A stretch of 64,000 bases of DNA from a virus: positions 1 through 64,000 of IMG/VR virus record IMGVR_UViG_3300045971_000437; one strand, written 5' to 3'. The notes under the pieces are model-generated. The model did no database searches and had not been told where the DNA came from. It saw only the letters and a list, made by a program, of their open reading frames with translations. A program made the translations under genes and the position numbers. Of this stretch, positions 13,189-48,649 are shown piece after piece. Each line of letters opens with the position of its first letter. Positions within the stretch are counted from its first letter, which is position 1.

Positions 13189-13196
13189 TATTTATA
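13189..13196 (-). promoter_or_regulatory. Late promoter (TATAAATA) of endolysin
   Basis: An exact TATAAATA on the minus strand, 35 bases before the endolysin start, just past the stop of the preceding gene. Confidence 0.65.
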
Positions 13197-13227
13197 CGTT
13201 TGCCGGCGGAAATGCCATCAGGCGACA

Positions 13228-13743: not shown

Positions 13744-13763
13744 TATATTTCCTTTAAAAATTT

Positions 13764-13769
13764 ATTATA
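13764..13769 (-). promoter_or_regulatory. Extended -10 promoter element
   Basis: TGATATAAT on the minus strand matches the -10 of the early promoters in this genome, but no TTTACT is found at -35. It could be a middle promoter needing an activator; a clear MotA-box match is not visible. Confidence 0.45.
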
Positions 13770-13798
13770 TCATTTTAAGAGCTAATTTAAAACTTGAG

Positions 13799-26329: not shown

Positions 26330-26354
26330 AAAAGCCCTCTTAAAGAGGGCTTTT
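26330..26354. terminator. Bidirectional terminator
   Basis: AAAAGCCCTCT-TAA-AGAGGGCTTTT, an 11-bp perfect stem with A-tract and T-tract on either side. It ends the plus-strand lipoprotein transcript and the minus-strand cargo operon. Confidence 0.9.
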
Positions 26355-26745
26355 ATTTACCGTGGTCTTTATCTTGCCAGAATAACTTACCCATAGTCGT
26401 TTGAAGTTTAGCTGGTCTGATATCATTACCCAGCTCTCTTGCAAACTTATACATTTCTGTTGCAATACCTTTTCTACGATGCGCTGGTTGAATAGCTAAA
26501 TCTAAAGCTTCTAATTTGCCATCCACCTCTTCAAAGTTAACCCAACCGCAATCAACACCTTTATCTGTTCTAGCAGTGATTCTAAATTGATCGCTCTTTA
26601 CTTTTTCACCAAGCTTAAGATATCCAGGTGATGCATAAAGCGTATATGTGCCATCTAAAATTTCTTTAGTCTGTCGAAAACCCTTCTTAAATAACTTAGC
26701 ATTAACTTTTTCAGTTAAGAAAGTTTTAAAATTTAGCTTAGACAT
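26353..26745 (-). CDS. GNAT acetyltransferase with capsid-targeting-like N-terminus
   Basis: The first residues, LNFKTFLTE, match the putative prohead-targeting peptide of this phage, with a predicted gp21 cut after FLTE. The rest is a minimal GNAT domain: a strand ALDLAIQPAHRRKGIATEMY with the acetyl-CoA pyrophosphate loop R-R-K-G-I-A (90-95). Length is 130 residues. It is the last gene of an operon of similar cargo-like genes. The likely role is acetylation of a host protein or small molecule soon after injection; the substrate is unknown. Confidence 0.75.
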   Translation of the reverse strand: MSKLNFKTFLTEKVNAKLFKKGFRQTKEILDGTYTLYASPGYLKLGEKVKSDQFRITARTDKGVDCGWVNFEEVDGKLEALDLAIQPAHRRKGIATEMYKFARELGNDIRPAKLQTTMGKLFWQDKDHGK

Positions 26746-26962
26746 TTTTAAATTTCTTTATTTCTTCAGCTATTTGTTTTTCAATCTGCTTAGTAGTTTT
26801 ACCAGTATGTACTGATAATACTTTAAATAAAGCAGCTTCATACTGTGATGCAGTGGGTCTAGTGTCATCATTACCCGACATGTAATTATTGCCAATAGAT
26901 TTCTGCAATGACATTGCGGCAATTGTAATTAAATCTTGTCCAGCTGCTTCATATAATTTCAT
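26738..26962 (-). CDS. Small cargo-like protein, 74 aa
   Basis: It begins MKLYEAAGQ; LYE followed by Ala fits the (L/I)xE cut rule of T4-type prohead proteases, though the targeting helix is very short. The rest is helical with no motif. It overlaps genes on both sides, as a member of the cargo operon. Confidence 0.5.
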   Translation of the reverse strand: MKLYEAAGQDLITIAAMSLQKSIGNNYMSGNDDTRPTASQYEAALFKVLSVHTGKTTKQIEKQIAEEIKKFKNV

Positions 26963-27786
26963 TTTGATTCCTCATTAAGTGCTTCAATCATTTTCTTCCA
27001 CATACTTTCAGATATTAACATACAAGGTCCACCAACCCATACTTCTGAGTCTAAGTTATGATTTAGTGTTTTAGTTGTCTGACATGTGAATCCCAGAACA
27101 TATGGACTATAAGCCCTAAATACTTCCTTTAAGAATCCATTATAATATCTTTTAAATGCAATTGCCTCTTCATCTTCGAAACCTCCAAATGCATTTTCGA
27201 AATTTTTAATTGCATTTATATCGTTATGTTTTAATTTCTTATCAAATTGTTCCCAATCCTTCCAACTAGTAGCTAGCTTTAATTCTGGAATTCTACTAAA
27301 TGAAGAATTAACTGCTTCTATTCTATCGCCAAATTCATCGTCAAATAGGCTAATTCTATGACTCCACATATCACCAGCGGCAACGACACCAATTTTAACC
27401 CCATCATATGGAATTAATACAAATGCATTATCACCATAACCAGATGCATTTTCTATTTCTGTTGTAGCAATAAATGATCTTGATCTCTTAGGATACTGTT
27501 TCATATCTGGATGATTATCAAATATTAGTGTATAATAATTCTTTGTGTTTTGACTCTTTCTAACTGTCTTTGATGGATCAACTGTTGCAAATCCAGTTTT
27601 ATGAACAGGTTTTTCTGCTTCGTCGTCACCGCGATATAACGGCTTATTTTCAGTCAACATCCATAGCGCATCTTTACAACGAGCATTAAGTAATTTTATA
27701 GCTTCTTTAACTTGTATAGAATTATATGAAGGTTTGCGCAAAATGTTATCTGCTGCTTCATTTATAAATGTTTTAAATGTTATCAT
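26959..27786 (-). CDS. ADP-ribosyltransferase-like virion cargo, subfamily A
   Basis: The N-terminus ITFKTFINEAA carries the targeting motif with a predicted cut after FINE. The body shows the ART order: Arg52 in PLYRGD, a Ser/Thr strand RSRSFIATTE (101-110) preceded by PK, a GYGDNAFVLIPYDG strand, and Glu248 in SEVWVGG near the C-terminus. This is the R-S-E pattern of arginine- or related ADP-ribosyltransferases; the first Glu of an ExE motif is not present. T4 Alt is a packaged ART with similar logic. It is paralogous to the next two subfamily A genes. Confidence 0.72.
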   Translation of the reverse strand: MITFKTFINEAADNILRKPSYNSIQVKEAIKLLNARCKDALWMLTENKPLYRGDDEAEKPVHKTGFATVDPSKTVRKSQNTKNYYTLIFDNHPDMKQYPKRSRSFIATTEIENASGYGDNAFVLIPYDGVKIGVVAAGDMWSHRISLFDDEFGDRIEAVNSSFSRIPELKLATSWKDWEQFDKKLKHNDINAIKNFENAFGGFEDEEAIAFKRYYNGFLKEVFRAYSPYVLGFTCQTTKTLNHNLDSEVWVGGPCMLISESMWKKMIEALNEESK

Positions 27787-28774
27787 TCTGTTTTCTTTTA
27801 TTGTTTGTCACCATCTTTTGCCACATAGCTAAATGTATCAATAGACATTCTCCGCCTATCCATACTTCTGTGACGTTGGTATGTGGTATTTTTTCGAGCA
27901 ATGTTTTTGTAGTTGCAGACTTCATGCCCAAATTTAGAGCACCATAAGCTCTTTTTACCTTTTTAAGAAAATCTGTTGATGCACTGCGAGATTGAGGCGC
28001 GTGTAGATAATATCTTACGGCTTGATTAAATTCAGCTAGAGCCGCCTCATCATTATCTTGCAATCGCTTGTCATAATCTATCCATTTTTGCCAATCATGT
28101 TCGGATAAAGAATCGAACATACTCCAAAACATATTAAAACCATCTAAATCAGATTCTATATCAAATAATTCTATATTATTATCCCAAATATCTTCTTTTC
28201 CGACTATCCCAATTTTAACACCATCATATGGAATAATTATAAATGGGGTTGAATCGCGCGAATAACCATCAGCTCTATCATAAGTATTTGCTGCTATAAA
28301 TGACCTTGATCGTTTTGGAAATGAATCATTTAAAACATTATCAAGTATTAAGGTATAGTAGTTTTTTGTATTTTGACTTTCGCGTTGTGTAGCTGATGTA
28401 TTTACCGTTGCGAATCCTTTAGGAAGATCAACGAACCTGTCACCACGAAATAAAGGCTCGTTTCTATCTAACATCCACATAGCATCTTTACAGTGAGTAT
28501 TAAATATTCTTAAAGCTTCTTCTTCATTTATGTGTAGATATTCTGGCTGCTTATCTATTGCTCTCTCATTTATAAATTCTTTAAATGATTTAGCTTCTTT
28601 TAGACCTAGCATCTTCTTTAGAACACCAGTAGTTAAAGCCCAAAATGATGGATCATCTTCAGACTTATCATATTGATCTTTAACTATCTTTTTAGCGTGA
28701 GCCCACTTGTGCTCTACATCAGCAAGAGTATGACCAGATTTTTTAGCGAAATGCTTTAATGCAGTAGCTGGCAT
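27773..28774 (-). CDS. ADP-ribosyltransferase-like cargo with extra N-terminal domain
   Basis: Residues 1-54 form an extra basic helical segment (DVEHKWAHAKKIVK, FWALTTGVLKKMLGL). The targeting motif KSFKEFINE is internal at 62-70, with two possible protease sites (LKE at 58-60 and INE at 68-70). The ART core follows: Arg110 in PLFRGD, RSRSFIAANT, an IIPYDGVKIGIVG strand and Glu303 in TEVWIGGE. It is clearly paralogous to the neighbouring 275-aa protein. The upstream start has a weak ribosome site; an internal start at Met55 is an alternative. Confidence 0.7.
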   Translation of the reverse strand: MPATALKHFAKKSGHTLADVEHKWAHAKKIVKDQYDKSEDDPSFWALTTGVLKKMLGLKEAKSFKEFINERAIDKQPEYLHINEEEALRIFNTHCKDAMWMLDRNEPLFRGDRFVDLPKGFATVNTSATQRESQNTKNYYTLILDNVLNDSFPKRSRSFIAANTYDRADGYSRDSTPFIIIPYDGVKIGIVGKEDIWDNNIELFDIESDLDGFNMFWSMFDSLSEHDWQKWIDYDKRLQDNDEAALAEFNQAVRYYLHAPQSRSASTDFLKKVKRAYGALNLGMKSATTKTLLEKIPHTNVTEVWIGGECLLIHLAMWQKMVTNNKRKQNDNI

Positions 28775-28777
28775 GTT

Positions 28778-29413
28778 TTAAATTTTTGTAAGTTGTTTCC
28801 AGATAACTAATGGCATTGATGTAATCATTTTATCTTCATAGTAGAGACAGACTTCTTCATCGTCATCTAGCATTACAGAATAATCACCAGCTCTGCCAAG
28901 AAGTTTAGGTTTAACTGGCTCAGCTGGTTCTTGTTCATCTTCTTTAACAGATGGTCTTGGGAAATTTGCAAATTGTGGATCTTTGTTGTCATCTTTAATA
29001 CGTTGAGCTTGCTTATATTCTGCATCTTCTATTTGATCATATAATTCATCACGTAGGAATCCTGACAATCTTTGACCGGATAAATTATCTGGATTAGCTA
29101 TGTCTATCGATTTTGGATTTGAGCTTCCTGGAAGAAAATAAAATACACGCCACATATCAACTTGGGTTTTTTCATTCTCATTCAACTCATCGTCATACAC
29201 AGCTTTGATCATATCAATAAGCATATCTGTATCTAAAATCTGTTCATCTGGAGCTGCTATTTCTTTTGCCTTATCAGCAATCGCATCCACAGCATCTTCA
29301 TAAGTCATTCCTTTAGCATCTACAAGCTTAATAGCTTTATCAATAACATTTTCAAGGTACTCTTTAGAGCGACTTTCTTTCAGTGTCAATAATTCTTTTA
29401 ATAAGTTACTCAT
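28778..29413 (-). CDS. Cargo-like protein, 211 aa
   Basis: It starts MSNLLKELLTLKES, the second form of the putative targeting peptide (LLKELLxLxE). The body is acidic and helical, with a Pro/Glu-rich linker (KEDEQEPAEPVKPK) before a small C-terminal beta segment. It has no known motif. It lies between two cargo-like genes in the same transcript. Confidence 0.6.
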   Translation of the reverse strand: MSNLLKELLTLKESRSKEYLENVIDKAIKLVDAKGMTYEDAVDAIADKAKEIAAPDEQILDTDMLIDMIKAVYDDELNENEKTQVDMWRVFYFLPGSSNPKSIDIANPDNLSGQRLSGFLRDELYDQIEDAEYKQAQRIKDDNKDPQFANFPRPSVKEDEQEPAEPVKPKLLGRAGDYSVMLDDDEEVCLYYEDKMITSMPLVIWKQLTKI

Positions 29414-29421
29414 TTCATTTC

Positions 29422-30999
29422 CTAGTTTAATGGGACTACAGTTGTTTTCTTAAATTTTAATGTGCCTGATAAGGCTACGCTTGCAGCTTTAACTTTAGAT
29501 GGAAATTCTACAGCTTTACCATCTTTCTTCCAAAGCTTACCATCTATTTCAATACCAAATTTCATATCAGATTTAGTATCTTCATGACCTAACTCTTGAT
29601 CTAATTCATTAGCTTTGAATGAAGCTTTATTCATTAGGGTACTCACAGCGCCCTTAAGGCCAGCCTCATAAAAATTATCCTCTGAAAGAACAACACCTTT
29701 ATCATCTTCTTGATCCCATACACCATAACAACGATCTTCGCCTTTTATTTCTGCAGAGACAGTCATCTTCTTACCTTGCATTTTACTCATGAAGGTAATT
29801 CGTTTAGCTTGTTGCGGATAAGAATTTTTAACTGCTTGTTTCCAATCTTCAATGTCAGTGTATGTAATAGCTTCTTTAAGTTTTTTGTATTTGTAAAGAA
29901 TATTTTCTGCATCAGCATTATGTTTCTTAGCCATATTCATATGGCTAATACCAGCTAAATCTTTTGTTGATTCGTATTTATCCATGCACTCTGCTTCTTG
30001 AATTTTTAATCCTAGATATGTTTGACGATCTTTAGGATCAGTAATAATATCTTCAACTTTGTTTTCATTAAAAGCAATTGCTAATTCGCGCTCTTTAATT
30101 TGATGTCTTAGCTGTTTAATTTCTTTAGCTACAGATGGCTTGATATCGATCTTTTTATCGAGCTCGGCTATTTTCTTTTTAAGCCATTCAATTTCATGCG
30201 CAGCATTACTTGAAACGGCTTCACCTAGCATAGCTTTTAATTTATCAATATCGGCTTGAGTCTCTGCTTTTTCGTCAGTGTGTTCTATCGGTGCAACTTT
30301 TGGATCTGATACTTCAGATTTATTTCTAAAGTGAGATACAGATGCCTTTAAAACTCCATCTTCATTTCTAAAATAGATAGAAGCAAGACCGTGATTAGCT
30401 TTAGCATTTTGTGTTATAACGTACTCACCATCTTTACTCCATTTTATATCTACATTACTAGATTTAAAATTCTTTCTAATCATATCACGTTGTTCTTTTG
30501 TAAGAGGCAACATCTTTGCTTCTTTTTTCTTAGGAGAAAGAATACCTTTAGCAAATGATTTAATTTTATCTGCTACGCCTTCATCTAATGGACCCCAAGC
30601 ATGCAGGCTTGTGTCTTCATTTAATTTACGCTTCTTCATTTCAGCTTTCAATGCTGCTCGAAGCGATGTATATTCTGTGTCCCAACCAGCAACACCCTTA
30701 TTAATATCCGTACTATACTTGATTAAATCGTTATCACTGAGTGCTACAATTTTTCTCATTTTGACACCACCATTAGCTAGAGTATCAAACTTATCGTATC
30801 TTTTAAAATGTTTAGAGGCAGACTTTTCATCTTTATTAACGATAGATGCAGTTGCTGCTTTTTCTATTTCTTGTCTAGCTCTATCTTTTGCTGTTTTACC
30901 AGCGAACATACGCTTAACATCTTTAACAAGTCCTTCGTTAACTTCTGTTATTTCTTTAGCGTCTTCTTCTAATTTAACAAATGATGATAGTAATTTCAT
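29422..30999 (-). CDS. Large internal-head cargo-like protein, 525 aa
   Basis: The N-terminus MKLLSSFVKLEED and several internal sites of the form (L/I)xE (KLNE, PLDE, MLGE, QEAE) suggest multiple gp21 cuts. The chain alternates Lys/Glu-rich helical or coiled-coil stretches (about 255-320) with small beta-rich parts, for example TVSAEIKGEDRCYGVWDQED. No catalytic motif is seen. It is the first gene after a TATAAATA late promoter. Confidence 0.6.
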   Translation of the reverse strand: MKLLSSFVKLEEDAKEITEVNEGLVKDVKRMFAGKTAKDRARQEIEKAATASIVNKDEKSASKHFKRYDKFDTLANGGVKMRKIVALSDNDLIKYSTDINKGVAGWDTEYTSLRAALKAEMKKRKLNEDTSLHAWGPLDEGVADKIKSFAKGILSPKKKEAKMLPLTKEQRDMIRKNFKSSNVDIKWSKDGEYVITQNAKANHGLASIYFRNEDGVLKASVSHFRNKSEVSDPKVAPIEHTDEKAETQADIDKLKAMLGEAVSSNAAHEIEWLKKKIAELDKKIDIKPSVAKEIKQLRHQIKERELAIAFNENKVEDIITDPKDRQTYLGLKIQEAECMDKYESTKDLAGISHMNMAKKHNADAENILYKYKKLKEAITYTDIEDWKQAVKNSYPQQAKRITFMSKMQGKKMTVSAEIKGEDRCYGVWDQEDDKGVVLSEDNFYEAGLKGAVSTLMNKASFKANELDQELGHEDTKSDMKFGIEIDGKLWKKDGKAVEFPSKVKAASVALSGTLKFKKTTVVPLN

Positions 31000-31038
31000 G
31001 TTATTTTCTCTTAATAAGGTGGTTGTAGCAAGCTACTT

Positions 31039-31046
31039 TATTTATA
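31039..31046 (-). promoter_or_regulatory. Late promoter (TATAAATA)
   Basis: Exact minus-strand TATAAATA 40 bases before the 525-aa gene, splitting the large cargo cluster into at least two transcripts. Confidence 0.65.
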
Positions 31047-31059
31047 GGTCAGGCAGATG

Positions 31060-31362
31060 TTATCTTGGATCTACATCATCATGATAAACTTTCGCGATGA
31101 TCTTACCCAATCCAGGAAGTTTGTGTCTTGTTAATCGTTCAGTTAACTTTTCTGAAAGATCAGGTTGAAGACCTTTAGATCTTTCATTATCATTGCAGTC
31201 AGCAATAACTTTTATAATCGATCTACCATCTTTATTAGATAATAATTTAATTTTAAAAACTTTGCATGCTATAAGCTCTTCCTCTGCAATGTGGTGTAAA
31301 ATATCTTCCCACTTCTCAACAGCAACTTCTGCTTTAGTTTCAAATAATTCGCTTAATTTCAT
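31060..31362 (-). CDS. Small cargo-like protein, 100 aa
   Basis: It begins MKLSELFETKAE; LFE followed by Thr fits a gp21-type cut. The rest is a small alpha/beta protein without recognised motif. It overlaps the upstream ART-like gene by 4 bases. Confidence 0.55.
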   Translation of the reverse strand: MKLSELFETKAEVAVEKWEDILHHIAEEELIACKVFKIKLLSNKDGRSIIKVIADCNDNERSKGLQPDLSEKLTERLTRHKLPGLGKIIAKVYHDDVDPR

Positions 31363-32027
31363 AATGTGTCCAAAAACGGTTTAACTTCATCTAAAAATAT
31401 TTCGTGCTTCTCACTCCAAGAGATATTGAACGCATAATACTTATCGCACTTCCACATAATTTCGTTTGTACTAGAAAGTAATCTTAAAAAATTGGTATTA
31501 AATTCCCAGTCAGAATTTTCTATATCGTTAATTAATTCAGTGCTAGTCAACTCATATTTTTCTTTTGTGTTGTTTGCTTGTTTTTCATAGGGCAACTTCC
31601 TCTGATTATTTAGCATGTCATTCCAAATATCTGAATGTAGTTGTGTTAAGTCACTAAACCTATGATCAAGCGTTCCAAACCATTCAAATTTTCCAATAGG
31701 AAAAATGGCAGTTAAATCACCATATGCACCTGCTACTCCGATGTCTCCAGATCCAAATGTCCAATTTCTAAATGGTTCACCATATTTTTGCCAAAAATAT
31801 CCATTTAGTACATCATGGACTTGAGAGGGCATATCTACAGGTCTTTTACGTTCGTGCCATTCCCTAATATCAAAATCTTTAGGAGCATGCTTATCACCGC
31901 GATAAAGTAACTTTTTACCTTTAGTTCCTTTTAGCAGCTCTAAAAATGGAGCACAGTCTTTTTTAAATTTTTCAAGATTGAATGTTGATTCATCTTCTTC
32001 ATTTATAAACTGTTTAAATCCTATCAT
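31359..32027 (-). CDS. ADP-ribosyltransferase-like cargo, subfamily B
   Basis: The start at 32027 overlaps the kinase stop (ATGA) and gives MIGFKQFINEED, the targeting motif. ART-like landmarks are Arg43 in LLYRGD, RPVDMP, the glycine-rich TFGSGDIGVAGAYGDL, the strand AIFPIGKFEWF and Glu189 in STNEIMW. At 222 residues it is the shortest of the family. The pattern is shared with the three subfamily B genes at 38-40.6 kb. Confidence 0.65.
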   Translation of the reverse strand: MIGFKQFINEEDESTFNLEKFKKDCAPFLELLKGTKGKKLLYRGDKHAPKDFDIREWHERKRPVDMPSQVHDVLNGYFWQKYGEPFRNWTFGSGDIGVAGAYGDLTAIFPIGKFEWFGTLDHRFSDLTQLHSDIWNDMLNNQRKLPYEKQANNTKEKYELTSTELINDIENSDWEFNTNFLRLLSSTNEIMWKCDKYYAFNISWSEKHEIFLDEVKPFLDTL

Positions 32028-32755
32028 GACTTGTACCATCCAGATATTTTCTTAGCTAGTACTTCTCTTGGAATAATTTCCGGTGAAATGTATTTTTGCT
32101 TCTTATTTTTCATTTCTTCAATCATTCGCTTGCCTACTGGATTTTCAAGAGGCTCAGAGAAAAATGATTGAACAGCTTTAAAAGCATTGTTCATACTCTT
32201 ATCATCGAGGATACCACTGTTATCAACTTGTCTGAAGAAATTAACTTTGCCTTTTAAGAAGGTAGCATTTTCTAAATTTTGTTCGTGTACCTGCTTAATA
32301 AAGTCTTCATCGACATGTCTGCCGGTTTTCTCAGCACGATCTTTAGCACGCTTAATAGCTACATCTAGAGGAGCATCTACAAATACAACTCCTATATCGT
32401 ATCCTAATGATTCTAATATACCCATGCGATGTAGAATATTAGACACATCATTTGATGTTCCATCTACAAACAATGGTAATATTCCATCTAAATAATTAGT
32501 AAGAAGTGTTTCAGTTATCCGGTGGGCCGTATCTTTAAAGTCTGACCATGAATCAGAATTAATTTGTTTCTTCCACTTAGTAGAAAGAAATTCAGCAGCC
32601 TTGTCAGTATTAACAACTTTCGGTGATACAGCTCCACTGATTTGTTTTACTGTGTAGCTCTTACCTGCGCCAGGTAAACCTACAACAAAAACCGCTTTCA
32701 AAATACCTTTATCATTAATTGATTCAGATATAAAATTTTTAAATGTTATGTTCAT
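32024..32755 (-). CDS. Zeta-toxin/PNK-like P-loop kinase, virion cargo
   Basis: The N-terminus ITFKNFISES carries the targeting motif. A P-loop GLPGAGKS (26-33) is followed by VVNTDKAAEFL, a DGTSND segment and VFVDAPLDVAIKRAKDRAEK with lid arginines. This order is typical of zeta toxins and polynucleotide kinases. Zeta toxins phosphorylate UDP-GlcNAc-type sugars; PNKs phosphorylate nucleic-acid ends; the sequence does not decide. Length is 243 residues. The start at 32755 is 3 bases past the previous stop. Confidence 0.72.
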   Translation of the reverse strand: MNITFKNFISESINDKGILKAVFVVGLPGAGKSYTVKQISGAVSPKVVNTDKAAEFLSTKWKKQINSDSWSDFKDTAHRITETLLTNYLDGILPLFVDGTSNDVSNILHRMGILESLGYDIGVVFVDAPLDVAIKRAKDRAEKTGRHVDEDFIKQVHEQNLENATFLKGKVNFFRQVDNSGILDDKSMNNAFKAVQSFFSEPLENPVGKRMIEEMKNKKQKYISPEIIPREVLAKKISGWYKS

Positions 32756-32757
32756 TA

Positions 32758-33414
32758 TTAAACTACCCAAGGGTCTACTATAATCGGAGTTCCATCATTG
32801 CGATGCATAAAATTGCTACCATGTAAATCAAAATTATAATCTCTCTGATTGGCTATTTTGCATAACGATATTATTGTATCTAATAAGAGATTAAATTTTT
32901 CTTCACCAAGCAATATTGCTAATTGATTTATTTCGTCAAAGTCTTTAATGTATAAAGCGGACTCATTTTCTAAATCTTTTTGCTTGCTGCCTAACTGCTT
33001 GAGCACTAACTTTTTAATTTTCTGCGGATCGCCATCTTCAATATAACCAGAAATCATACCAAGTGCATTTGATAATTTAGGTGGAAGTTTTTGTAATTTT
33101 TCCATTCTTATTTGCAAATAATCTTTACCATCTTTACCATACGTAAAGTTAGTCCATCCAGAAAATTTAGGAAGAAATGGATTTTTAGAATGATCTTTAC
33201 AATACTTTGCCCAATAAGCAAACATGTCATGCCCTTCATTATGACCAGAATAATGCGAGCCAAATACTTTTAATACCTGTTCAGTTCCTGGTTCTAAAAA
33301 TGCAGTTTGATCTACACCATTACCTAATTTTTTATATCCCTTAGCTTGAAGATATTTAGTAATACTATCTGGGGTGTGGGACCACTCAGTAATAAATTTT
33401 TTAAATGATACCAT
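32758..33414 (-). CDS. Protein-kinase-like enzyme, virion cargo
   Basis: After the targeting peptide VSFKKFITE, a Gly-rich strand (KLGNGVDQTAF) is followed by the likely ATP Lys49 in QVLKVF. A C-terminal catalytic-loop-like motif FDLHGSNF (Asp196, Asn201) and metal motif VDPW (Asp214) follow. This is the order of protein kinase/aminoglycoside phosphotransferase-like folds. At 218 residues it ends soon after the metal motif, so the C-lobe is minimal. Phosphorylation of host proteins or a small molecule is inferred. It is followed at once by the P-loop kinase gene. Confidence 0.7.
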   Translation of the reverse strand: MVSFKKFITEWSHTPDSITKYLQAKGYKKLGNGVDQTAFLEPGTEQVLKVFGSHYSGHNEGHDMFAYWAKYCKDHSKNPFLPKFSGWTNFTYGKDGKDYLQIRMEKLQKLPPKLSNALGMISGYIEDGDPQKIKKLVLKQLGSKQKDLENESALYIKDFDEINQLAILLGEEKFNLLLDTIISLCKIANQRDYNFDLHGSNFMHRNDGTPIIVDPWVV

Positions 33415-33416
33415 TA

Positions 33417-34382
33417 TTAATTTCCTAACTGTTTTTGTATGTCATTAAAAATATCTAATTTTATTGCTATAGCTTTCCCACTAAACCATACTTCTGCTTG
33501 TGTTGGCAACTTGGAGCCATATCGTACTAAAGATAATTCTAGATTCTCTGGAGTCATCGAATCATTCATTATAGTTGAAAATCTTTCATTTTTAGGTAGT
33601 GCTTTTAAATAATTTAATAATCTATTTTGTTGTACTGTAAGCTTTGCTGTCTTAATATAATTAGCGAGTGATGTCATTACTAATAGCGATGGTTTGCCTA
33701 AAAACATTTCAAACGTATCTCTATATGATTTTGGAAAATCATCTCTTGAAAGAGCGCATCCAGCTTTATCGGCTAAATTATAACCAGCATGCATTGCTAA
33801 ATATATTTCTTCTGGCGTAGCTTTTGATAACGCGGAATCAATTTTAGCTAAGTCAGTGTATTGATTTCCAGCATTCCGATCTATCCTAAGTACAGATAGA
33901 AAACATGTTCCTGGTCCACCTAAAGCATAGCCAAAATCATTCAGCGATATATTTTTAAACATACCAGATGCATATTTAGTTTCTGGAAAATCATCCTGTT
34001 CACCAACTACTATCATTGTATTGTCGTATGGAATAATAGCGTAAACATTAGTACTATAATTTCTGGCACCAGTAACACTCGTTGAGCATATTAAAGAGTT
34101 ACTTCTTTTAGGAAATGATGATAGTGAGGTAGAATTATCCATCATTAATTGATATAGATTATTTGAATCCCTAGATGTTCTTACCATATCACTTAAATCT
34201 AAGGAAACAAAATCGCCACTAAAAGATTTATCTCCTCTATAAAGAAGACCATTATTAGCAATTGCTTTTAGTCCATCTTTACAATGCGTATTTAATAAAT
34301 TAATAGCATCATCAGTTAATACATTATAGGAGGACCAGCTTTTTACAATTGCCTCAGATAAAAATTGTTTAAATGTTTGCAT
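33417..34382 (-). CDS. ADP-ribosyltransferase-like cargo, subfamily A, divergent
   Basis: The N-terminus QTFKQFLSEA carries the targeting motif. ART landmarks are Arg49 in LLYRGDKS, a classic Ser-Thr-Ser strand SLICSTS (about 108-114) after FPKRSN, a YAIIPYDNTMIVVG strand and Glu297 in QAEVWFSG, a Q-x-E arrangement. It has a longer central region than the other subfamily A members. Q-x-E in other ARTs correlates with targets other than arginine, so this copy may have a different substrate. Confidence 0.7.
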   Translation of the reverse strand: MQTFKQFLSEAIVKSWSSYNVLTDDAINLLNTHCKDGLKAIANNGLLYRGDKSFSGDFVSLDLSDMVRTSRDSNNLYQLMMDNSTSLSSFPKRSNSLICSTSVTGARNYSTNVYAIIPYDNTMIVVGEQDDFPETKYASGMFKNISLNDFGYALGGPGTCFLSVLRIDRNAGNQYTDLAKIDSALSKATPEEIYLAMHAGYNLADKAGCALSRDDFPKSYRDTFEMFLGKPSLLVMTSLANYIKTAKLTVQQNRLLNYLKALPKNERFSTIMNDSMTPENLELSLVRYGSKLPTQAEVWFSGKAIAIKLDIFNDIQKQLGN

Positions 34383-34837
34383 TAGTATGTTTTCTTTTCT
34401 TCATCTAAGGTTATCATTTTTAAAATATCTTCACGATTAGCAATTACTAAATTATTAGTAGTTTTGCCAGCATGAGGAATGAATACTTGATTTGCTCGCT
34501 TACGATCAGTCTTTACTTTCGATCTGCTGTTCGCTGCTGCTAAAGCTATATTTAAATAATTAGCTGCAACTTCTGCATTTCTGGCTGCATATCTAGGTTC
34601 GATTACTGCCATATACGCAGTCTGCTGTTGAAATGTTTCTATTGCCATCGTGTACACTTCATCTATTCGCTGTTCAATTAAAACATCGTCTTCATCTTTA
34701 TGATCTGGTTGCGGACCTTCTGGTTGAGCAGCCACTAAATCATTTGACACGGCCTCAGCTACAGCATAATCTTGTGATATGTCTGTTAATCCTTCTTCTA
34801 ATCCAAATACTGATTCTAGTGGATGAGCGATTTTCAT
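34382..34837 (-). CDS. Probable terminase small subunit (gp16-like)
   Basis: The 151-residue protein has an N-terminal disordered acidic region, a long helical pair (IDEVYTMAIETFQQ, RNAEVAANYLNIALAA) and a C-terminal NLVIANREDILKMI segment. The T4 gp16 layout is similar: central coiled helices, then a conserved tail with TVFMGSPTELM. Length (T4: 164) and location among head-completion and tail genes fit. It is, however, 9 kb from gp17, unlike T4 where 16 and 17 adjoin. The call is based on pattern rather than clear identity. Confidence 0.55.
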   Translation of the reverse strand: MKIAHPLESVFGLEEGLTDISQDYAVAEAVSNDLVAAQPEGPQPDHKDEDDVLIEQRIDEVYTMAIETFQQQTAYMAVIEPRYAARNAEVAANYLNIALAAANSRSKVKTDRKRANQVFIPHAGKTTNNLVIANREDILKMITLDEEKKTY

Positions 34838-34840
34838 AAT

Positions 34841-35311
34841 TTACCTCTTTACCTTTTTAGGGGCCCTTTGTGGTTTTTTAGAGAAGAGTTGTTTTTCGGT
34901 TACGACTCTAAACCGTGCTCCTATGGATTTTGCAAATGCATCTGCTGCTGTCCATTTAGCAATGTTTTTAATTAATGATAATTTATCATAAGTTGTTTTT
35001 GCTGCTTCAGCAAGAGACTCTTTTAGTGGTTTTATTTCTACAATTTCTACTGCACCTGTAACATACCAAACAATAAAATCTGGCCAATAAGAATGTGGCT
35101 TTCTATCTATTGGACTAATATATTTTATATTTAGTGTTTTAGGTTCACTTGTCCATTTTGCTACCAATTTTGACTGATCAAGTAAATTCATATACAGCGT
35201 TTCCCAAGAAGAACGTGGGACTATGTTATTAATATTACCAACATATTTCTGTGGGTTTTGCGGCATAAATTTAGCATTTTTATTTACACGTGTTAAAATT
35301 CTACCTACCAT
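34841..35311 (-). CDS. gp4-like head completion protein, second copy
   Basis: The 156-residue protein shares its layout with the adjacent 150-aa protein: NPQKYVGNINNIVPRSSWE, WPDFIV, VEIVEIKPLKES and ARFRVVTE. The PDF..E..EIKP pattern is a restriction-endonuclease-like (TnsA/MmcB-type) core, as in T4 gp4. It has a basic C-terminal tail (APKKVKR). The two genes overlap by one base and look like a tandem duplication followed by divergence. Confidence 0.72.
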   Translation of the reverse strand: MVGRILTRVNKNAKFMPQNPQKYVGNINNIVPRSSWETLYMNLLDQSKLVAKWTSEPKTLNIKYISPIDRKPHSYWPDFIVWYVTGAVEIVEIKPLKESLAEAAKTTYDKLSLIKNIAKWTAADAFAKSIGARFRVVTEKQLFSKKPQRAPKKVKR

Positions 35312-35763
35312 TATAACATCCCATTCTTACGAGGAGATTTTACACCCTGATGAAATATGCTACGCTCTGTTATAACACGAAACGACATACCTCTAGCTTC
35401 GCAATAAATTGCAGCAGCAGCCCACTTAGCATCATTCACTTTTAAAGCTTCTTTAGATCTGTCTGACTTAGCGAATTTCTTGTCTGACTCATGTAAAGGT
35501 TTAACCTCTACTATTTCTTTTTTAATTTCGCCTTTAGCATTTCTAAATTCTATAAAGAAGTCTGGAAAATATCTATGCACTTGATTATCTTTAGGACTGA
35601 GATATGGTATAACTATTTCTTCACTGCCCCACTTAATAATATCCGGCCGACTATCAAAGAATGTCATGACATTCACTTCCCACAATGACCTAAAGAATAT
35701 CTTATCAACATCGCCAACATATTTATCTTTATTTTTAGGTAAAAATTGTCCACTAATAGCCAT
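35311..35763 (-). CDS. 4: gp4-like head completion protein
   Basis: T4 gp4 (also gp50) finishes the DNA-filled head so that the tail can join. The 150-residue length equals T4's. Conserved features are FLPKNKDKYVGDVD, RSLWE, a WGSEEIVIPYLSP strand, HRYFPDFFIEF, EIVEVKPLHES and FRVITE. The D...E-x-K pattern in these strands forms a nuclease-like active site. It lies between the tube-like protein and the second gp4-like gene. Confidence 0.82.
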   Translation of the reverse strand: MAISGQFLPKNKDKYVGDVDKIFFRSLWEVNVMTFFDSRPDIIKWGSEEIVIPYLSPKDNQVHRYFPDFFIEFRNAKGEIKKEIVEVKPLHESDKKFAKSDRSKEALKVNDAKWAAAAIYCEARGMSFRVITERSIFHQGVKSPRKNGML

Positions 35764-37049
35764 TATCCACCAATAATTTTTGTTGTTAATTGTTGAGATG
35801 TAGCTGAAGGAGTAGAATTATCTACTAGTGGTGGTGGGTTTGGTCTTGCTAATCCCTGAATAACACCATTACCAGCATTACGCAATGTGTTTGCTCCAGC
35901 CTCACCTAACATGCCACTCATATTCGATGTCACTGCATTCATTGCTTGTCCACCTATTGAATTGCCGAAGGTTTTAGTTAGTGAATTTGCTACTGTATTT
36001 TGCAAAAGACGTTGTCCCTGTCTAGCAATAATATCAACGAATGGATTTTTACCAGTTCCACCAGCAGATGTTTGACCTTTGCCAGCATTGAACGATGGTG
36101 TTTCGTCAATTGAACCCATAAGATCGCCGTGCGGTATTTTTGCAACCTTTGTACTCTTTCCTTCTTGATTAGTATCAATATGCAGTGCATCAAAATCAAA
36201 GGCTGCTGCTATAGTTGATGCAACTCCACCAGCTTCATGGTCATGATCACCTATATCAAAACTTTGAAGTCTAGGATTAATCAAAATGAATCTATTTAAT
36301 CTAATATTATCACCTAATGTTGCGCCGCCGCTATCGCCTAAGCGCATATAAAATTGTTCTATAATAACTGTAGATAAAACGTTCTTTGTATTATCTGGCA
36401 GTGCTCCCCTAAAAGCTGTATCGGTATCAGTTACTCCACCAGCAAATGCAAATCCATGATCGCCCAAAGGGAATGTCGGTGAATATTCTTTTCTTGTTAT
36501 TGGTTTTAAAAGCATCATGTATAAATTTATAAAATCCATTGCTCTATTTCCGGTGTCGTCATAGAATGTTAAATTTAATTCTCTATTTCTAATAGATTTT
36601 AATACTTTAGTTTTGAAGTTATACATATTAACTTCTTCATATTCGAATTCAACTTTAGGCAAATCGATTTGTTTCACTGTAAAATTTAATTCGCGTGTTA
36701 ATTTTTCAGTATCAATCCCCATAGCTGAAGCTTTACTTATAATAGACGGATGAAATTGAAAAGATACTTTGAATAAGAATTTATTTTTGGGATCATATTG
36801 GCCTATGAATGATCCAATGTTTGACGCATATGGAGTTGGGTCCCAAACACCTGGCTTTGATCCTGCTGCAGCAGCTGTAGCATTTAAATCGCCCTTACTA
36901 TCCTGCTGTGCGGATCCAGGTTTATTTAAACCTAACATTGGTCCAAGAATACCGCCAACCTGATTATTTACTGCAGCACCAAACTGTCCGAATGCTTCTT
37001 TTTCTAAAGAAACCCCGGTGCCCTTAATTATTCCTGAAATATCAAACAT
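35763..37049 (-). CDS. Tail-tube/baseplate tube-cap family protein (gp48/gp54-like)
   Basis: A 428-residue protein with a tail-tube-like core at about residues 85-290 (FLFKVSFQFHP, TVKQIDLPKVEFEYEEVNMYNF, ELNLTFYDDTGN) and Gly/Ala-rich, probably disordered ends. T4 gp48 and gp54 have such tube-like domains and start tube assembly on the baseplate. Its position two genes after the tube protein gp19 fits. Which of gp48, gp54 or a head-side tube terminator it replaces cannot be decided. Confidence 0.6.
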   Translation of the reverse strand: MFDISGIIKGTGVSLEKEAFGQFGAAVNNQVGGILGPMLGLNKPGSAQQDSKGDLNATAAAAGSKPGVWDPTPYASNIGSFIGQYDPKNKFLFKVSFQFHPSIISKASAMGIDTEKLTRELNFTVKQIDLPKVEFEYEEVNMYNFKTKVLKSIRNRELNLTFYDDTGNRAMDFINLYMMLLKPITRKEYSPTFPLGDHGFAFAGGVTDTDTAFRGALPDNTKNVLSTVIIEQFYMRLGDSGGATLGDNIRLNRFILINPRLQSFDIGDHDHEAGGVASTIAAAFDFDALHIDTNQEGKSTKVAKIPHGDLMGSIDETPSFNAGKGQTSAGGTGKNPFVDIIARQGQRLLQNTVANSLTKTFGNSIGGQAMNAVTSNMSGMLGEAGANTLRNAGNGVIQGLARPNPPPLVDNSTPSATSQQLTTKIIGG

Positions 37050-37077
37050 TATAGTTCAACCTCATATTATGATCTTT

Positions 37078-37085
37078 TATTTATT
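37078..37085 (-). promoter_or_regulatory. Late promoter (AATAAATA)
   Basis: Minus-strand AATAAATA 29 bases before the tube-cap-like gene and directly after the terminator at 37123-37150. Confidence 0.5.
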
Positions 37086-37122
37086 AGATTCATGATAGTA
37101 ATGAATGTTAAAACCAGGACAA

Positions 37123-37150
37123 AAAAATAGACTTCGAAAAGTCTATTTTT
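37123..37150 (-). terminator. Terminator after the tail tube unit
   Basis: AAAAATAGACTT-CGAA-AAGTCTATTTTT, a 12-bp stem with a stable CGAA/TTCG loop; the 3' arm supplies the U-rich tract. Confidence 0.85.
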
Positions 37151-37163
37151 AAAATCTTTCTAA

Positions 37164-37304
37164 TTAAGGACCAGGAGGAGGTGGCGGTGCAGGCGGAAGC
37201 CAATCTTTTTTCCAGTCTGCCTTAGCATCTTCTTTCCAATCTTCTTTCCAGTCTTTCTTAACTCCTGGAACACTGTCAAACATATCTTTAATAGGTGTAG
37301 CCAT
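37164..37304 (-). CDS. 46-aa protein with KDW repeats and proline tail
   Basis: ATG at 37304 to TAA at 37164 encodes MATPIKDMFDSVPGVKKDW, then tandem KEDWKED-type units and a C-terminal PPAPPPPPGP. AAGGAG lies 6-8 bases before the start. It follows gp19 closely and ends just before the terminator, so it is co-expressed with the tube protein. The periodic W/K/D pattern suggests an amphipathic helix; the Pro tail could bind or plug. It is unlike any family I know. Confidence 0.72.
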   Translation of the reverse strand: MATPIKDMFDSVPGVKKDWKEDWKEDAKADWKKDWLPPAPPPPPGP

Positions 37305-37323
37305 TTTAACTTCTCCTTAATTA

Positions 37324-37917
37324 TTAGTTTAAGTTACCAGCAAGAGCAGTACCATAACCTTGACCAGTAAGATCTTGTCTAGCATGATCATATCTAATTT
37401 GCATAGTAATAGTATTTGCATCAGATGCAGAATAATCAAGATCACCGTAGTCTACTGACTGTAACCAGCATCCTTCTACTTTCCACGATTCAACAACACC
37501 TTCATTACCATCTAACATTTCTAAGATAGTACCAAATTTATAATCAGAACCAGTTGCTGCAGCATTCAACCACTGACCTGGCAAATCTGCACCAATTAAA
37601 CGCTGTTGAGTTTCAAGTTGACCTTGAACTGCATAAGATGCTAATCCAGTAATATCATCTTCAATTGTTAAAGAGATAGGATCCCAAGTATGTTTACCAG
37701 CTGCATAAGCAACTGAATTGTAACGATGCATTTGAATTTCTTCAAATGATAAGTTAGGTCGAGTAACCGTAGTTGCTTGACGAGTTAATTCTCTTGATGA
37801 GGCACCGGACACTAAGCGTGCGAAACCAACAAATGTTACTCTCCAACGATATTTTTGTTTTGGGTGAAGAATACCGAATCCTGCTCCAGGTATACCCATT
37901 TGACTAAGTGTAGCCAT
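37324..37917 (-). CDS. 19: Tail tube protein gp19
   Basis: It builds the hexameric inner tube through which DNA passes. The 197-residue protein (T4: 163) has the gp19 landmarks: an early RWRVTFVGFARL strand, VTRPNLSFEEIQMHRYN, KHTWDPISLTIEDDI with the following helix, and VEGCWLQSVDYGDLDYSASDANTITMQIRYDH at the C-terminal half. Late boxes lie upstream (37979-37986, AATAAATA). It is separated from gp18 by three ART-like cargo genes, an unusual interruption. Confidence 0.92.
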   Translation of the reverse strand: MATLSQMGIPGAGFGILHPKQKYRWRVTFVGFARLVSGASSRELTRQATTVTRPNLSFEEIQMHRYNSVAYAAGKHTWDPISLTIEDDITGLASYAVQGQLETQQRLIGADLPGQWLNAAATGSDYKFGTILEMLDGNEGVVESWKVEGCWLQSVDYGDLDYSASDANTITMQIRYDHARQDLTGQGYGTALAGNLN

Positions 37918-37978
37918 GTTTTCTTTCTCCGTAAAAATAAGTTAAGTCGAGTAACTATGTGTCAACTCAATCATGATT

Positions 37979-37986
37979 TATTTATT
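37979..37986 (-). promoter_or_regulatory. Possible late promoter (AATAAATA) of gp19
   Basis: Minus-strand AATAAATA 62 bases before gp19, in the gap after the ART-like cargo genes. Confidence 0.4.
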
Positions 37987-38026
37987 AAATTTTGTAGAAT
38001 TATTGTGGAAATTTATAAAAAGATAA

Positions 38027-38896
38027 CTATTCTACTTTAGCTATTTCTTTAAGGATGAACGTATACATCTCACTCCATTCAGCCGACCCTTTATTACCAG
38101 TAGCTTTATTGTATGCGTCCATAGCAATACCAATTGGAATTGAATAATATCCAGAAGATTCATGGATGAGAATTTCATTTCCAGAAAATATTGCGGGAGT
38201 TAAATCAATATTATTCTCATAAGATTTTTCACCATATTCCTTCATTCCATCCTTAATCATCTGATAAACGGATTCCTCAATATCTTGCATACCCATCTCA
38301 TTGTATTGATATGCTGCTTGTGTTTTGTTAACCACGTCTCTACCACCATCAACCCATTTACTAGCAAAATACTGTTCTTCTGAGCCAGGATATTTATCCC
38401 ACATAACTTTTAATATTGTTGGTGATAATTGGGCTCCATGCTGGCTACCAAATCTAGCTATAGGTTTCAACCAGCCTGACCAATCTGATACCGAATCAGC
38501 TACTCTTGGGGACCAAATATATTTAAAATTTCCTACTGGAAAAATAACATGTTCTGTACCATAGCCTCCAGCAATTGCTGGATTTCCAGAAGCAAATACT
38601 GAATGTGTGCGGACGTCTTTAATATTGAAGGCGCAATCAATCATTGCATCAAATAGAATATTAAAGTTTACTGCAGAATCTCGTGGTGGTCTACCAGTAG
38701 GGTGCTTAGTGAATTTTATCTCTTCTATGCGGACTTGATAACCATCCTTAGTTACCTTAGCTTTAGCGATACCTCTAAACATAGGATAAGGACCAGCTTC
38801 TGTTAAGAATGGTTTACATTTTTTAGCTATAAGTTTTATAGCTTCTTCAAATGATAGTTGACTATCTTCTTGCAATAGGAATGTTTTAAATTTCAT
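38027..38896 (-). CDS. ADP-ribosyltransferase-like cargo, subfamily B
   Basis: The N-terminus KFKTFLLQED carries the targeting motif. Landmarks: Arg41 in PMFRGI, GRPPRDS, the HSVFASGN strand (98-105), GGYGTEHVIFPVGNFKYIWSP and Glu241 in SGNEILIH, followed by GYYSIP. Arg, Ser and Glu lie in the order and spacing of R-S-E ADP-ribosyltransferases. It overlaps the next paralogue by 11 bases. The three adjacent B genes share this frame throughout, so they arose by tandem duplication. Confidence 0.7.
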   Translation of the reverse strand: MKFKTFLLQEDSQLSFEEAIKLIAKKCKPFLTEAGPYPMFRGIAKAKVTKDGYQVRIEEIKFTKHPTGRPPRDSAVNFNILFDAMIDCAFNIKDVRTHSVFASGNPAIAGGYGTEHVIFPVGNFKYIWSPRVADSVSDWSGWLKPIARFGSQHGAQLSPTILKVMWDKYPGSEEQYFASKWVDGGRDVVNKTQAAYQYNEMGMQDIEESVYQMIKDGMKEYGEKSYENNIDLTPAIFSGNEILIHESSGYYSIPIGIAMDAYNKATGNKGSAEWSEMYTFILKEIAKVE

Positions 38897-39788
38897 TGTT
38901 AACCATCTTTAATAAGTATTCGTAATATTGATCGTGTTGGGCGGAATGATTCACGTGGTCATTTTCGTTTTTACTATAAAATTTAATATAATCATCTACT
39001 AGAGGACCTCTAGGAACAGCATAATATCCTTCTGATTCATAAAGAAATATTTCATTTCCAGATTTAATAGCTCTCTTAATATTTTGATCATCTGTATATA
39101 ACTTTGTTCCCATCTCTTTTAATGCATCATGGAATAGCTTCACTAATTCTCTAGGTTCAAGATGATCTAACTTACTCTTTATTAATGGTGTACTAACACA
39201 TAGTTTAAATTTTTCTAAAAACCATTCTGCTTGATCCTCTTGAGGGTTAGTCATCCAATCTTTATTCCAGCTTGTTAACTCATCAGCATATCTATAAAAT
39301 AAGCTGTCAATTCTTAAATCGTATGCTTCAGTATGTTTCAGTTCTTTGACATGATCAATAATATAGTGCGCTATATCTTTACTCCACTCATCTTCATAAT
39401 TAATAGAATCGATTACACTCATGGAATAAAGTATTTTATAATCGCCTTTTGGGAAAACGTAATGAGGATATCCATATTCAAATGTAGTTGTTCTATCTCC
39501 AGTACAAAATATTGAACGCTTACGAATATCTGGAATACCAAATGATGCCATTATCATCAAATTAAAAAGACAATTAAATGGTGGATTTGAATCTCTAGGA
39601 CTTCTATTAGTAGGTTGGTTTGAAAATAGAACGGTCTCATCATTTCTATTTCTGCTTATTCCTCTGAATAATGGATAATCCGGTGCAGACGTTAAGAATG
39701 GTTGACACTCACTTTTAATATCTGGACAAGCACCCTCAATAGAATATTTTCTAGCTTGTTCTTCATTTAAAAATTCTAAAAATCTCAT
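38886..39788 (-). CDS. ADP-ribosyltransferase-like cargo, subfamily B
   Basis: It begins MRFLEFLNEEQ, a variant of the targeting peptide. Arg42 in PLFRGI, RSPRDS, RSIFCTGD, YGYPHYVFPKGDYKILYS and Glu246 in SGNEIFLYES give the same skeleton as its neighbours. The long central helical region (about 130-230) differs most among paralogues and probably defines the target. Length is 300 residues. Confidence 0.7.
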   Translation of the reverse strand: MRFLEFLNEEQARKYSIEGACPDIKSECQPFLTSAPDYPLFRGISRNRNDETVLFSNQPTNRSPRDSNPPFNCLFNLMIMASFGIPDIRKRSIFCTGDRTTTFEYGYPHYVFPKGDYKILYSMSVIDSINYEDEWSKDIAHYIIDHVKELKHTEAYDLRIDSLFYRYADELTSWNKDWMTNPQEDQAEWFLEKFKLCVSTPLIKSKLDHLEPRELVKLFHDALKEMGTKLYTDDQNIKRAIKSGNEIFLYESEGYYAVPRGPLVDDYIKFYSKNENDHVNHSAQHDQYYEYLLKMVNNEI

Positions 39789-40615
39789 ATGCTTCTTATT
39801 TTATCAATCAATTTTTGGTACAAATCTGTTAATGGTAACGCTTCTGCTCCCAACTGCGTCATCGTCTTATCATTAATCAGCATCTGTCTAACAGCAACAA
39901 TAGGTAGCAAATAATATCCATCAGACTTATAAATTAAAATTTCGTTTTTAGACTTAATAGCTTTATCAAGTCCATTATTATTTTCATATAGATCATTAAT
40001 TGCATTACCGAATGCATTTGCCATCTTTGCTTGAGTTGGTGGAACACGATCACCTTCCATTGCATCTTTGATACCCATTGCAATTGTATCTTCTTCTGCG
40101 ATGTCTGCGAAATCATTTGGTGACACACGTTTACTAAAATATTCCATCATATCATTTAATTCAGTATCATTAATAGCTTTACTTAAATTGCTAATAATGT
40201 CTCGTTTTATTTTTGTACTATCATCATATGAATCATTTATTCGTGGTGACCAAATATAGTCTATATCGCCAGCTGGAAAAATAAAATTTATTGTACCGAA
40301 CTGTTGAGCTGTTTGATAATCACCAGTACAGAATAATGACTTTTTCCTAATGTCTCGTATACCAAATGCCGCATCTACTGCCGCATTAAACATGAAATTA
40401 AAATCTGGACTGGAATCTAGAGCCGGTCTATCTTCAGGATGAGGTAGAAACGTTCCCCCAATATCTGGGGAAGGGTTTCTTTTGTTACCAAAACCTCTAT
40501 ATAATGGCAAGGCTTTTGATTCTTTTAAGAACTGTTGACACTCATCACTTATACGTTTAAGTACATCGTCAATTTTGACTATTCGTTCTTCTTTTAGGAA
40601 TGTTTTAAATCTCAT
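39785..40615 (-). CDS. ADP-ribosyltransferase-like cargo, subfamily B
   Basis: It begins MRFKTFLKEER, the clearest form of the targeting motif. Arg40 in PLYRGF, RPALDS, KSLFCTGD, FGTINFIFPAGDIDYIWSP and Glu225 in KNEILIYKSDGYYLLP match the family pattern. It is the first gene of the three-gene ART cluster, 31 bases from an exact TATAAATA late promoter, so the cluster is expressed with virion genes. Confidence 0.7.
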   Translation of the reverse strand: MRFKTFLKEERIVKIDDVLKRISDECQQFLKESKALPLYRGFGNKRNPSPDIGGTFLPHPEDRPALDSSPDFNFMFNAAVDAAFGIRDIRKKSLFCTGDYQTAQQFGTINFIFPAGDIDYIWSPRINDSYDDSTKIKRDIISNLSKAINDTELNDMMEYFSKRVSPNDFADIAEEDTIAMGIKDAMEGDRVPPTQAKMANAFGNAINDLYENNNGLDKAIKSKNEILIYKSDGYYLLPIVAVRQMLINDKTMTQLGAEALPLTDLYQKLIDKIRSI

Positions 40616-40645: not shown

Positions 40646-40653
40646 TATTTATA
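40646..40653 (-). promoter_or_regulatory. Late promoter (TATAAATA)
   Basis: Exact minus-strand TATAAATA 31 bases before the three-gene ART cluster, directly following the gp18 terminator. Confidence 0.7.
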
Positions 40654-45008: not shown

Positions 45009-45769
45009 TAGTCGTCCTCATTCCAATCCATCATGCCATTATATAACTTAACAGCACCTTTATAAATTAAACTATCTGTTTTAAACCAAGCTGTTGATTC
45101 GACATCCCAGCCATCTGTAAACTTATCTGAATCCCTGCTTTGCCAGCCACTATGATGCACACTATCAAAATGTTTAGCCATTGAATCCCATGGAAAATTA
45201 CCGCGCATCTTCCAAGTTCCATATTGTGATGCTGCCCACTCAGAATTTTTCTTCGTTAGTTGAGCAGCATCTTCTGCCCATTCATAATATCTATCTAGGT
45301 ATTCAGAATCATATATAATTGCTGTAGGTTTAATCTCAAACAGAAATCCATAATCAGTCTGCCAATGTGGATATCTTTCTTTAACGAATTGATACCAATC
45401 ACTTGACCATGTTCCATCAGGCCTTTTAAATGCACTTGATGTCCAAAATGCATGGTGAGGTTTATTATCGCCTGGTGGAGAGTCATGAAAAGCCGTTAAT
45501 ATTGGTGCCATTTCTTCTTTTATGGTGTATAAATCATTAACTTCTTTTTTAGCTTGTGCGTATCTCCGCTCACGATCACGTTCAATCTGTACATTTGGAT
45601 CTCTACGTTTAGGAACGAACAATTGAAGTTCTTTATGTACTCTATTATCCGTGAAGGTAGATTGAATACGTCTCAACTCCGCATAGACTTTATCCTCCTC
45701 TGGCCACGGAGTTTCAGGTGGAACCTTTGGTTTTCTAGGAGCTTCTAAAAAGGTTTTAAATCGCATCAT
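45008..45769 (-). CDS. Cargo-like protein, possible divergent ART fold, 253 aa
   Basis: It begins MMRFKTFLEAP, with FLE-Ala as predicted protease cut. A segment FHDSPPGDNKPHHAFWTSSAF, followed by GFLFEIKPTAIIYD, recalls the His...Ser-Ser strands of H-Y-E-type ADP-ribosyltransferases, but no confident catalytic Glu is placed. It overlaps gp14 by 4 bases and the amidoligase by one base, so all three are co-translated. Treat the ART idea as tentative. Confidence 0.5.
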   Translation of the reverse strand: MMRFKTFLEAPRKPKVPPETPWPEEDKVYAELRRIQSTFTDNRVHKELQLFVPKRRDPNVQIERDRERRYAQAKKEVNDLYTIKEEMAPILTAFHDSPPGDNKPHHAFWTSSAFKRPDGTWSSDWYQFVKERYPHWQTDYGFLFEIKPTAIIYDSEYLDRYYEWAEDAAQLTKKNSEWAASQYGTWKMRGNFPWDSMAKHFDSVHHSGWQSRDSDKFTDGWDVESTAWFKTDSLIYKGAVKLYNGMMDWNEDD

Positions 45770-48623: not shown

Positions 48624-48649
48624 AATGATCTCCATTTTATTTGACTATC

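Follow-up and report, generated by a model that had tools for sequence, protein, structure and literature searches.

ADP-ribosyltransferase-like proteins with capsid-targeting-like leaders form an expanded family in T4-like phages

The 64-kb window analysed here, taken from the 71,293-bp viral contig IMGVR_UViG_3300045971_000437 (positions 1 to 64,000), contains seven paralogous genes whose products resemble ADP-ribosyltransferases (ARTs) and carry a short peptide that aligns in register with the capsid targeting sequence of T4. We consider it likely that the seven are tandemly expanded, head-packaged and injected ART-like enzymes. That they are true ARTs, judging by conserved residues and structure models, appears likely.

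The seven paralogues and their relatives

All seven open reading frames (ORFs) that a first-pass annotation had picked out as ART-like were confirmed, each on the minus strand. Subfamily A consists of the products of 26959..27786 (275 residues; tag MITFKTFINE↓A at 27757-27786, arrows here and below marking the cleavage point, predicted for proteins of the window; key residues R52 and E248), 27773..28774 (333 residues; internal tag KSFKEFINE at about 28565-28591; R110, E303) and 33417..34382 (321 residues; MQTFKQFLSE↓A; R49, E297). Subfamily B comprises those of 31359..32039 (226 residues; MIGFKQFINE counted from the second Met; R47, E193), 38027..38896 (289 residues; MKFKTFLLQE; R41, E241), 38886..39788 (300 residues; MRFLEFLNE; R42, E246) and 39785..40615 (276 residues; MRFKTFLKE at 40589-40615; R40, E225). 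The separation of Arg and Glu ranges from 146 to 248 residues, and the late position of the Arg in the 27773 product is explained by an extra domain of about 60 residues upstream of its tag. This domain (residues 1-60, MPATALKHFAKKSGH) is itself conserved; the same layout of N-terminal domain followed by tag recurs in relatives from contigs L006, L007, L013 and L015, and in the window copy LKE↓A stands directly before the second tag.

The proposed division into two subfamilies was borne out by pairwise identities of 28-46% within A and 24-34% within B, against 16-24% between them, and hhalign shows the subfamilies to be homologous (99.5%, E 4e-22). Profile searches of the whole record found exactly these seven members and no others, while relatives collected from 55 viral contigs yielded about 180 distinct sequences. 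Scans with the 39785 product as a single protein and with the A1 alignment returned no loci. Among PHROGs, the family corresponds only to groups of unknown function (12810, 11975 and 15932).

Repeated duplication, as suggested earlier, is supported. The B genes 38027, 38886 and 39785 form a clade found only in the window (support 99). Closer kin of 31359, of 33417 and of 26959/27773 occur in other phages, indicating that old lineages have been kept and that one has recently been triplicated. Elsewhere the copy number reaches about 12 in phage Atu_ph07 and about 15 in a 116-kb fragment, G005 (manual count of distinct places). Divergence was also correctly placed mainly in the middle region, the most variable part in both length and sequence, with about 1.1-1.2 bits per column compared to 2.0-2.8 in the catalytic blocks; such variation may be compatible with changing targets. 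Small ORFs with a repeated AIAKSxxYSYxYAxxVLxGxFPLGEP lie in and beside arrays in other contigs (L001:234-1646 and 11640-14085; L009:4176-5047).

Residue conservation was counted in 157 aligned relatives, 100 of A and 57 of B. The late Glu is invariant (100/100 and 57/57), and the early Arg position holds Arg, Lys or His in 99 of 100 A sequences (R 94, K 5) and in 56 of 57 B sequences (R 48, H 7); the motif pattern is, therefore, not attributable to chance. The His variant, LYHGT, was seen in seven B-type proteins (L001:4554-7069 and members in L004, L008, L015 and L027). Of the R-S-E order that had been read into the seven proteins, Arg and Glu stand, but the Ser (S104) is kept only in A, where it is present in 98/100, and not in B. 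The first Glu of an ExE motif is absent from all seven, as had been noticed, and only 33417 has Q-x-E (as Q-A-E); the earlier suggestion was that some copies may thus act on targets other than arginine. Among the relatives, 12/100 A and 6/57 B sequences have Glu two residues before the late Glu, and one A and two B have Gln, so that ExE is scarce family-wide and the E/Q-x-E of the R-S-E clade ARTT loop is not a feature of the family.

AlphaFold2 models were obtained for 26959 (A; predicted local distance difference test, pLDDT, 92.9; predicted template modelling score, pTM, 0.88) and 39785 (B; pLDDT 85.5, pTM 0.83). In these the Arg falls on a predicted strand (50-53 in A, 39-42 in B), as does the Arg/His of the first core strand of ARTs, and the late Glu, positioned as a catalytic Glu would be, falls on another (248-251 and 225-230). 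Chains listed by Foldseek were re-aligned by VIA, the ART status of entries being assigned from their titles and general knowledge. For the B model six of the eight entries with Z of at least 2 were ARTs, at Z values of only 2.2-4.0: PE-like toxin Jlx (4.0), KptA (3.9 and 3.7), DarT1 (2.5), 6kyf, which we take to be AcrIF11 (2.3), and CopC (2.2). For the A model the top two were OspC3 (2.5) and TccC3HVR (2.3); CopC and OspC3 are presumably ART-fold enzymes. When compared, with tags removed, to tagged ART-PolyVal proteins of related phages (see below), B scored above 60 of 60 decoys, though narrowly, and with motif 2 aligned; A did not exceed decoys. Residue order and invariance, the models and the VIA alignments together support the ART-like identity first proposed, which we grade as likely and not as proven.

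The capsid-targeting-like leader

All seven proteins carry the peptide M-x-x-F-K-x-F-(L/I)-x-E, some copies being one residue shorter than the T4 type. The T4 internal proteins (IPs) IPII and IPIII start MKTYQEFIAE↓A, with which MITFKTFINE↓A of the window aligns in exact register, and IPI starts MKTFKEF. In IPIII residues 4 and 7 have been shown by experiment to govern targeting and residues 8 and 10 processing (PMC9026906). F-K-x-F-(L/I)-x-E or a near variant starts 12 of 79 genes, whereas the frequency of the pattern in protein bodies predicts 0.7 (P about 1e-11); gene 18993, among these matches, is probably there by chance. Conservation of the tag equals that of the catalytic blocks (2.2-2.3 bits, compared to 1.1-1.4 in the adjacent stretch), and the first ten residues have pLDDT values of 62 and 52 in the two models. 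High conservation and low pLDDT in combination fit a detachable leader, not a part of the fold. As in T4, the contig that encodes the tagged proteins also encodes a gp21-type prohead protease (Peptidase_S77; 58941..59555, minus strand; PF03420 2.5e-27, phrog_207 1.5e-57), the predicted tag cleaver.

Covariation of the tag was tested over 43 virus genomes. Tags of A and B proteins from one genome score a mean of 23.4 against each other, whereas those of the same subfamily across genomes score 9.7, a difference reached in none of 1000 shuffles of the genome labels; the tag thus follows the genome and not the ART subfamily. In the Agrobacterium phage Atu_ph07 it takes the form M(R/K)WxQLxE, and the corresponding DNA pattern occurs at 13 places, compared to none for the reversed pattern. 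Twelve of the 13 are ART-like; ten are the starts of array genes and one belongs to the B-type gp408, 255 kb away. Atu_ph07 gp381 is tagged and ART-PolyVal-like (E 4e-4), and a protein of L009 starting MITFKEYLIE matches ART-PolyVal at 3e-6. In G007 the family has MKINEI or MRINEV at the N-terminus, and two clear ART-PolyVal proteins begin with MRINEIIRES and MRLNEIKKS, the latter with no obvious L-x-E ending. In three genomes, therefore, Pfam-recognised ARTs bear or begin with the tag of their own genome, and the address is found also on independently recognised ARTs.

The Atu_ph07 array, gp053-gp063, lies inside coding sequences (CDS) 31-76, and a study of this phage states that 29 proteins of CDS 31-76 were detected in virions (PMC6102473). 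Both ends of the array are natural fusions, gp053 (L002:19485-21821) of an A-type ART-like protein with a Zeta-like kinase and gp063 (L002:29505-30593) of a weakly GNAT-like region with a B-type protein, an arrangement consistent with a shared place of action. The tagged gp482 (L073:2167-3003) has a Cys...His pattern, WCWGFA...GHSWVEFNGYHFDAE, suggestive of a Cys-His peptidase-like enzyme although lacking Pfam support.

In the window the tag also occurs on proteins unrelated to ARTs, all encoded on the minus strand. These are a P-loop kinase (32024..32770; Zeta_toxin 3.6e-14, AAA_33; likely internal-Met start MNITFKNFISE), a protein-kinase-like protein of T7 gp0.7 type (32758..33414; phrog_15752, E 1.4e-7; MVSFKKFITE), a GNAT acetyltransferase (26353..26745; PF00583 22.4 bits, cut-off 20.7; MSKLNFKTFLTE), an amidoligase (43431..45008; PF12224 4.5e-7; MRFKDFLIE) and a small protein of unknown function (52342..52626; MKITFKEFLTE); another protein of unknown function (45008..45769) has the related N-terminus MMRFKTFLEA. 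Tagged relatives were found elsewhere for the Zeta-like kinase (12 loci), the gp0.7-like protein (4, including the window) and the amidoligase (in L042). From a tag shared with unrelated enzymes one can read by what route, and at what stage, the ART-like proteins would enter the host. A second recurring N-terminus, LLKEL(L/I)xLxE, is present in the otherwise unrelated head-region proteins 28778, 53929, 54596 and 58357 and is possibly another core-targeting leader.

Two late promoter-like sites precede family genes. A T4-type TATAAATA at 40646..40653 (minus strand) lies 31 nucleotides upstream of the B triplet operon, and a second at 31039..31046 (minus strand) lies 40 nucleotides upstream of the gene at 29422-30999, the same-strand genes that follow including 27773 and 26959. 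It is only the placement of TATAAATA upstream of genes that is significant, not its abundance: nine sites were found against 9.2 expected, eight of which lie 10-90 nucleotides upstream of a same-strand gene, compared to 8.8% for permuted octamers.

The minus strand of the window holds a T4-like myophage structural module, with a terminase large subunit (23861..25423; PF03237 5.7e-14), a sheath protein, a gp23-type major capsid protein (55031..56269; PF07068 4.4e-97), the protease and a gp20-type portal protein (59643..61223; PF07230 7.6e-88). Between the protease and capsid genes, in the gp22 position, lies a gene (56289..57170, minus strand) for a probable prohead scaffold and predicted tag receptor, so assigned by position only, the PHROG match of its product being a family of unknown function. 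The capsid protein contains LKE↓T ahead of AGAG, which by analogy with T4 may be the start of its mature region. Its nearest relatives are those of Xanthomonas phage XacN1 (62%) and Stenotrophomonas phages CM1 and RAS14 (57%), all three of them jumbo phages. By this capsid-protein kinship the record, from a giant T4-like phage, belongs near the 'group 2.2' jumbo phages (PMC7824862). Among the tail genes, the protein of 47658-48635 has an N-terminus resembling GIY-YIG endonucleases, and a similar ORF adjoins A-type genes at L042:8406-9146.

Proposed route and its alternatives

Under the mechanism that we favour, the ART-like proteins would be synthesised late, at the same time as the proteins of the head, and the N-terminal M-x-x-F-K-x-F-(L/I)-x-E, acting as capsid targeting sequence, would bring them into the prohead core. 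Cleavage after (L/I)-x-E by the gp21-type protease would free them for ejection, together with the DNA, into a new host. There the strand bearing Arg (sometimes Lys or His) would bind nicotinamide adenine dinucleotide (NAD) and the invariant Glu would drive ADP-ribose transfer onto host or defence macromolecules, ahead of phage transcription. Capture, cleavage and ejection are proposed on T4 precedent, and catalysis from the residues and fold hints. Duplication, together with variation in the middle region, would furnish a range of specificities, while the same address would deliver the kinase, the Zeta-like kinase, the GNAT acetyltransferase and the amidoligase. In each phage the address peptide presumably evolves in step with the scaffold and the protease. 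In its widest form the proposal is that injection in T4-like jumbo phages is a modular platform, with one lineage-specific address peptide on many unrelated enzymes and a new Arg/His-swapping ART family (about fifteen copies in one record) as the dominant cargo; to this we give roughly even chances.

Several results weigh against the proposal. VIA Z values of 2-4 may reflect common arrangements, and Foldseek gave no significant match to either model in the PDB, its BFVD matches being confined to members of this family from jumbo phages. Pfam ART models matched neither the seven proteins nor the 157 relatives, a search of the record with the Pfam ART model PF01129 found no match, and PDB sequence searches with the A and B profiles produced chance-level hits only. 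The Ser column in B is mixed (S 22, G 14, W 13, A 6 of 57). Sequence kinship with T4 ModA and ModB, towards which the first-pass annotation had pointed, is not supported: the best hhalign local alignments land on the motifs, yet score no better than block-shuffled decoys, and we do not propose membership of the ModA/ModB family. The virion support for Atu_ph07 is a cluster-level statement on CDS 31-76 and not one on gp053-gp063 individually (PMC6102473). With the Foldseek, Pfam and ModA/ModB comparisons silent, the proteins could be some other two-sheet enzyme, for example a nucleotide-binding enzyme or NAD hydrolase, in which Arg-Gly and Glu have converged on the ART arrangement. This seems rather improbable, given the predominance of ART-superfamily structures in the VIA alignments, the ART-PolyVal profile match of B above decoys, and the R/H interchange: alternation of Arg and His at this position separates ART clades, and the natural change from LYRG to LYHGT in B falls on it. 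It is these supporting hints, set against silent searches, low VIA Z values and a ModA/ModB result at decoy level, that led us to the label 'ART-like'.

Other explanations accept either the packaging or the chemistry. The proteins could be tag-packed internal head (core) proteins without enzyme activity, structural or DNA-condensing as T4 IPIII was once thought to be; a shared capsid-type tag and genes sitting among structural genes would suit this, but it is unlikely in view of the invariant Glu and near-invariant Arg, both on strands, and of the clear enzymes (kinase-like, GNAT, amidoligase, ART-PolyVal) that share the tag. Alternatively, they could be real ARTs acting in the infected cell, in the manner of the untagged T4 ModA and ModB, their N-terminal peptide having nothing to do with packaging. 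We regard this as very unlikely, since a late promoter-like site precedes the B operon, the tag has the register of the experimentally defined T4 signal, and it tracks the genome rather than the protein family.

Relation to known systems and significance

As packaged and injected ART-like enzymes, the seven proteins would resemble T4 Alt, which travels in the head and is made with an N-terminal propeptide (MELITELFDE↓D), in their predicted ADP-ribosyl transfer in the new host. However, no sequence kinship with Alt was detected, the tag is of IP and not Alt type, and each record has between seven and about fifteen short paralogues in place of one 682-residue protein. With IPI, IPII and IPIII they share the register F/Y4, F7, I/L8 and E10 and the presence of varied mature bodies behind one leader, through which T4 IP genes were previously found (PMC12373910). 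The T4 IPs, though, are small non-enzymatic restriction inhibitors, whereas here predicted enzymes prevail, one expanded family is dominant and the leader sequence varies between genomes. T4 ModA and ModB share the order of the motifs LYRG, ST-x4-A-x2-F and E-(I/V/W)-M-I but, aside from the decoy-level profile comparison, differ in being untagged.

Phage ARTs of the ART-PolyVal type or fused to MuF have been predicted to be head-packaged and injected (Iyer et al., PMC9503650, PMC5512222), and proteins of PF18760 type occur in three related genomes, where they have the genome's tag or a tag-like start. Pfam recognises those ARTs, which are mostly of His type, and fusions with MuF or polyvalent proteins are frequent among them; subfamilies A and B, in contrast, are unrecognised by Pfam, mostly Arg-type and furnished with a short, predicted cleavable tag. 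The phiKZ inner-body and SPN3US ejection proteins are likewise paralogous head proteins, several of them cut by the prohead protease and injected, but belong to another phage group, are different proteins and have no common ART-like domain shown.

Packaging of ARTs in phage heads is already known, as are phages that have at least ten ARTs (PMC9503650). A search of open-access PubMed Central papers turned up no account of the family or its tandem arrays, and none of a genome-specific leader common to ARTs and other enzymes. The seven proteins belong to a new, unannotated ART-like family that strongly extends the theme of T4 Alt and the internal proteins. To our knowledge, almost no injected enzymes of jumbo phages have been identified. 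Injected phage enzymes act before any phage gene expression.

Atu_ph07 is a cultured member and allows direct testing. If the proposal is true, dozens of 'hypothetical proteins' can be gathered by their ten-residue label into a list of injected enzymes open to testing, and the address in any such genome would list its injected effectors. It would also show how a phage expands a single ART, as in T4 Alt, into a set of seven to about fifteen, and would add an unannotated ART-like family (PHROGs 12810, 11975 and 15932) to NAD biology.

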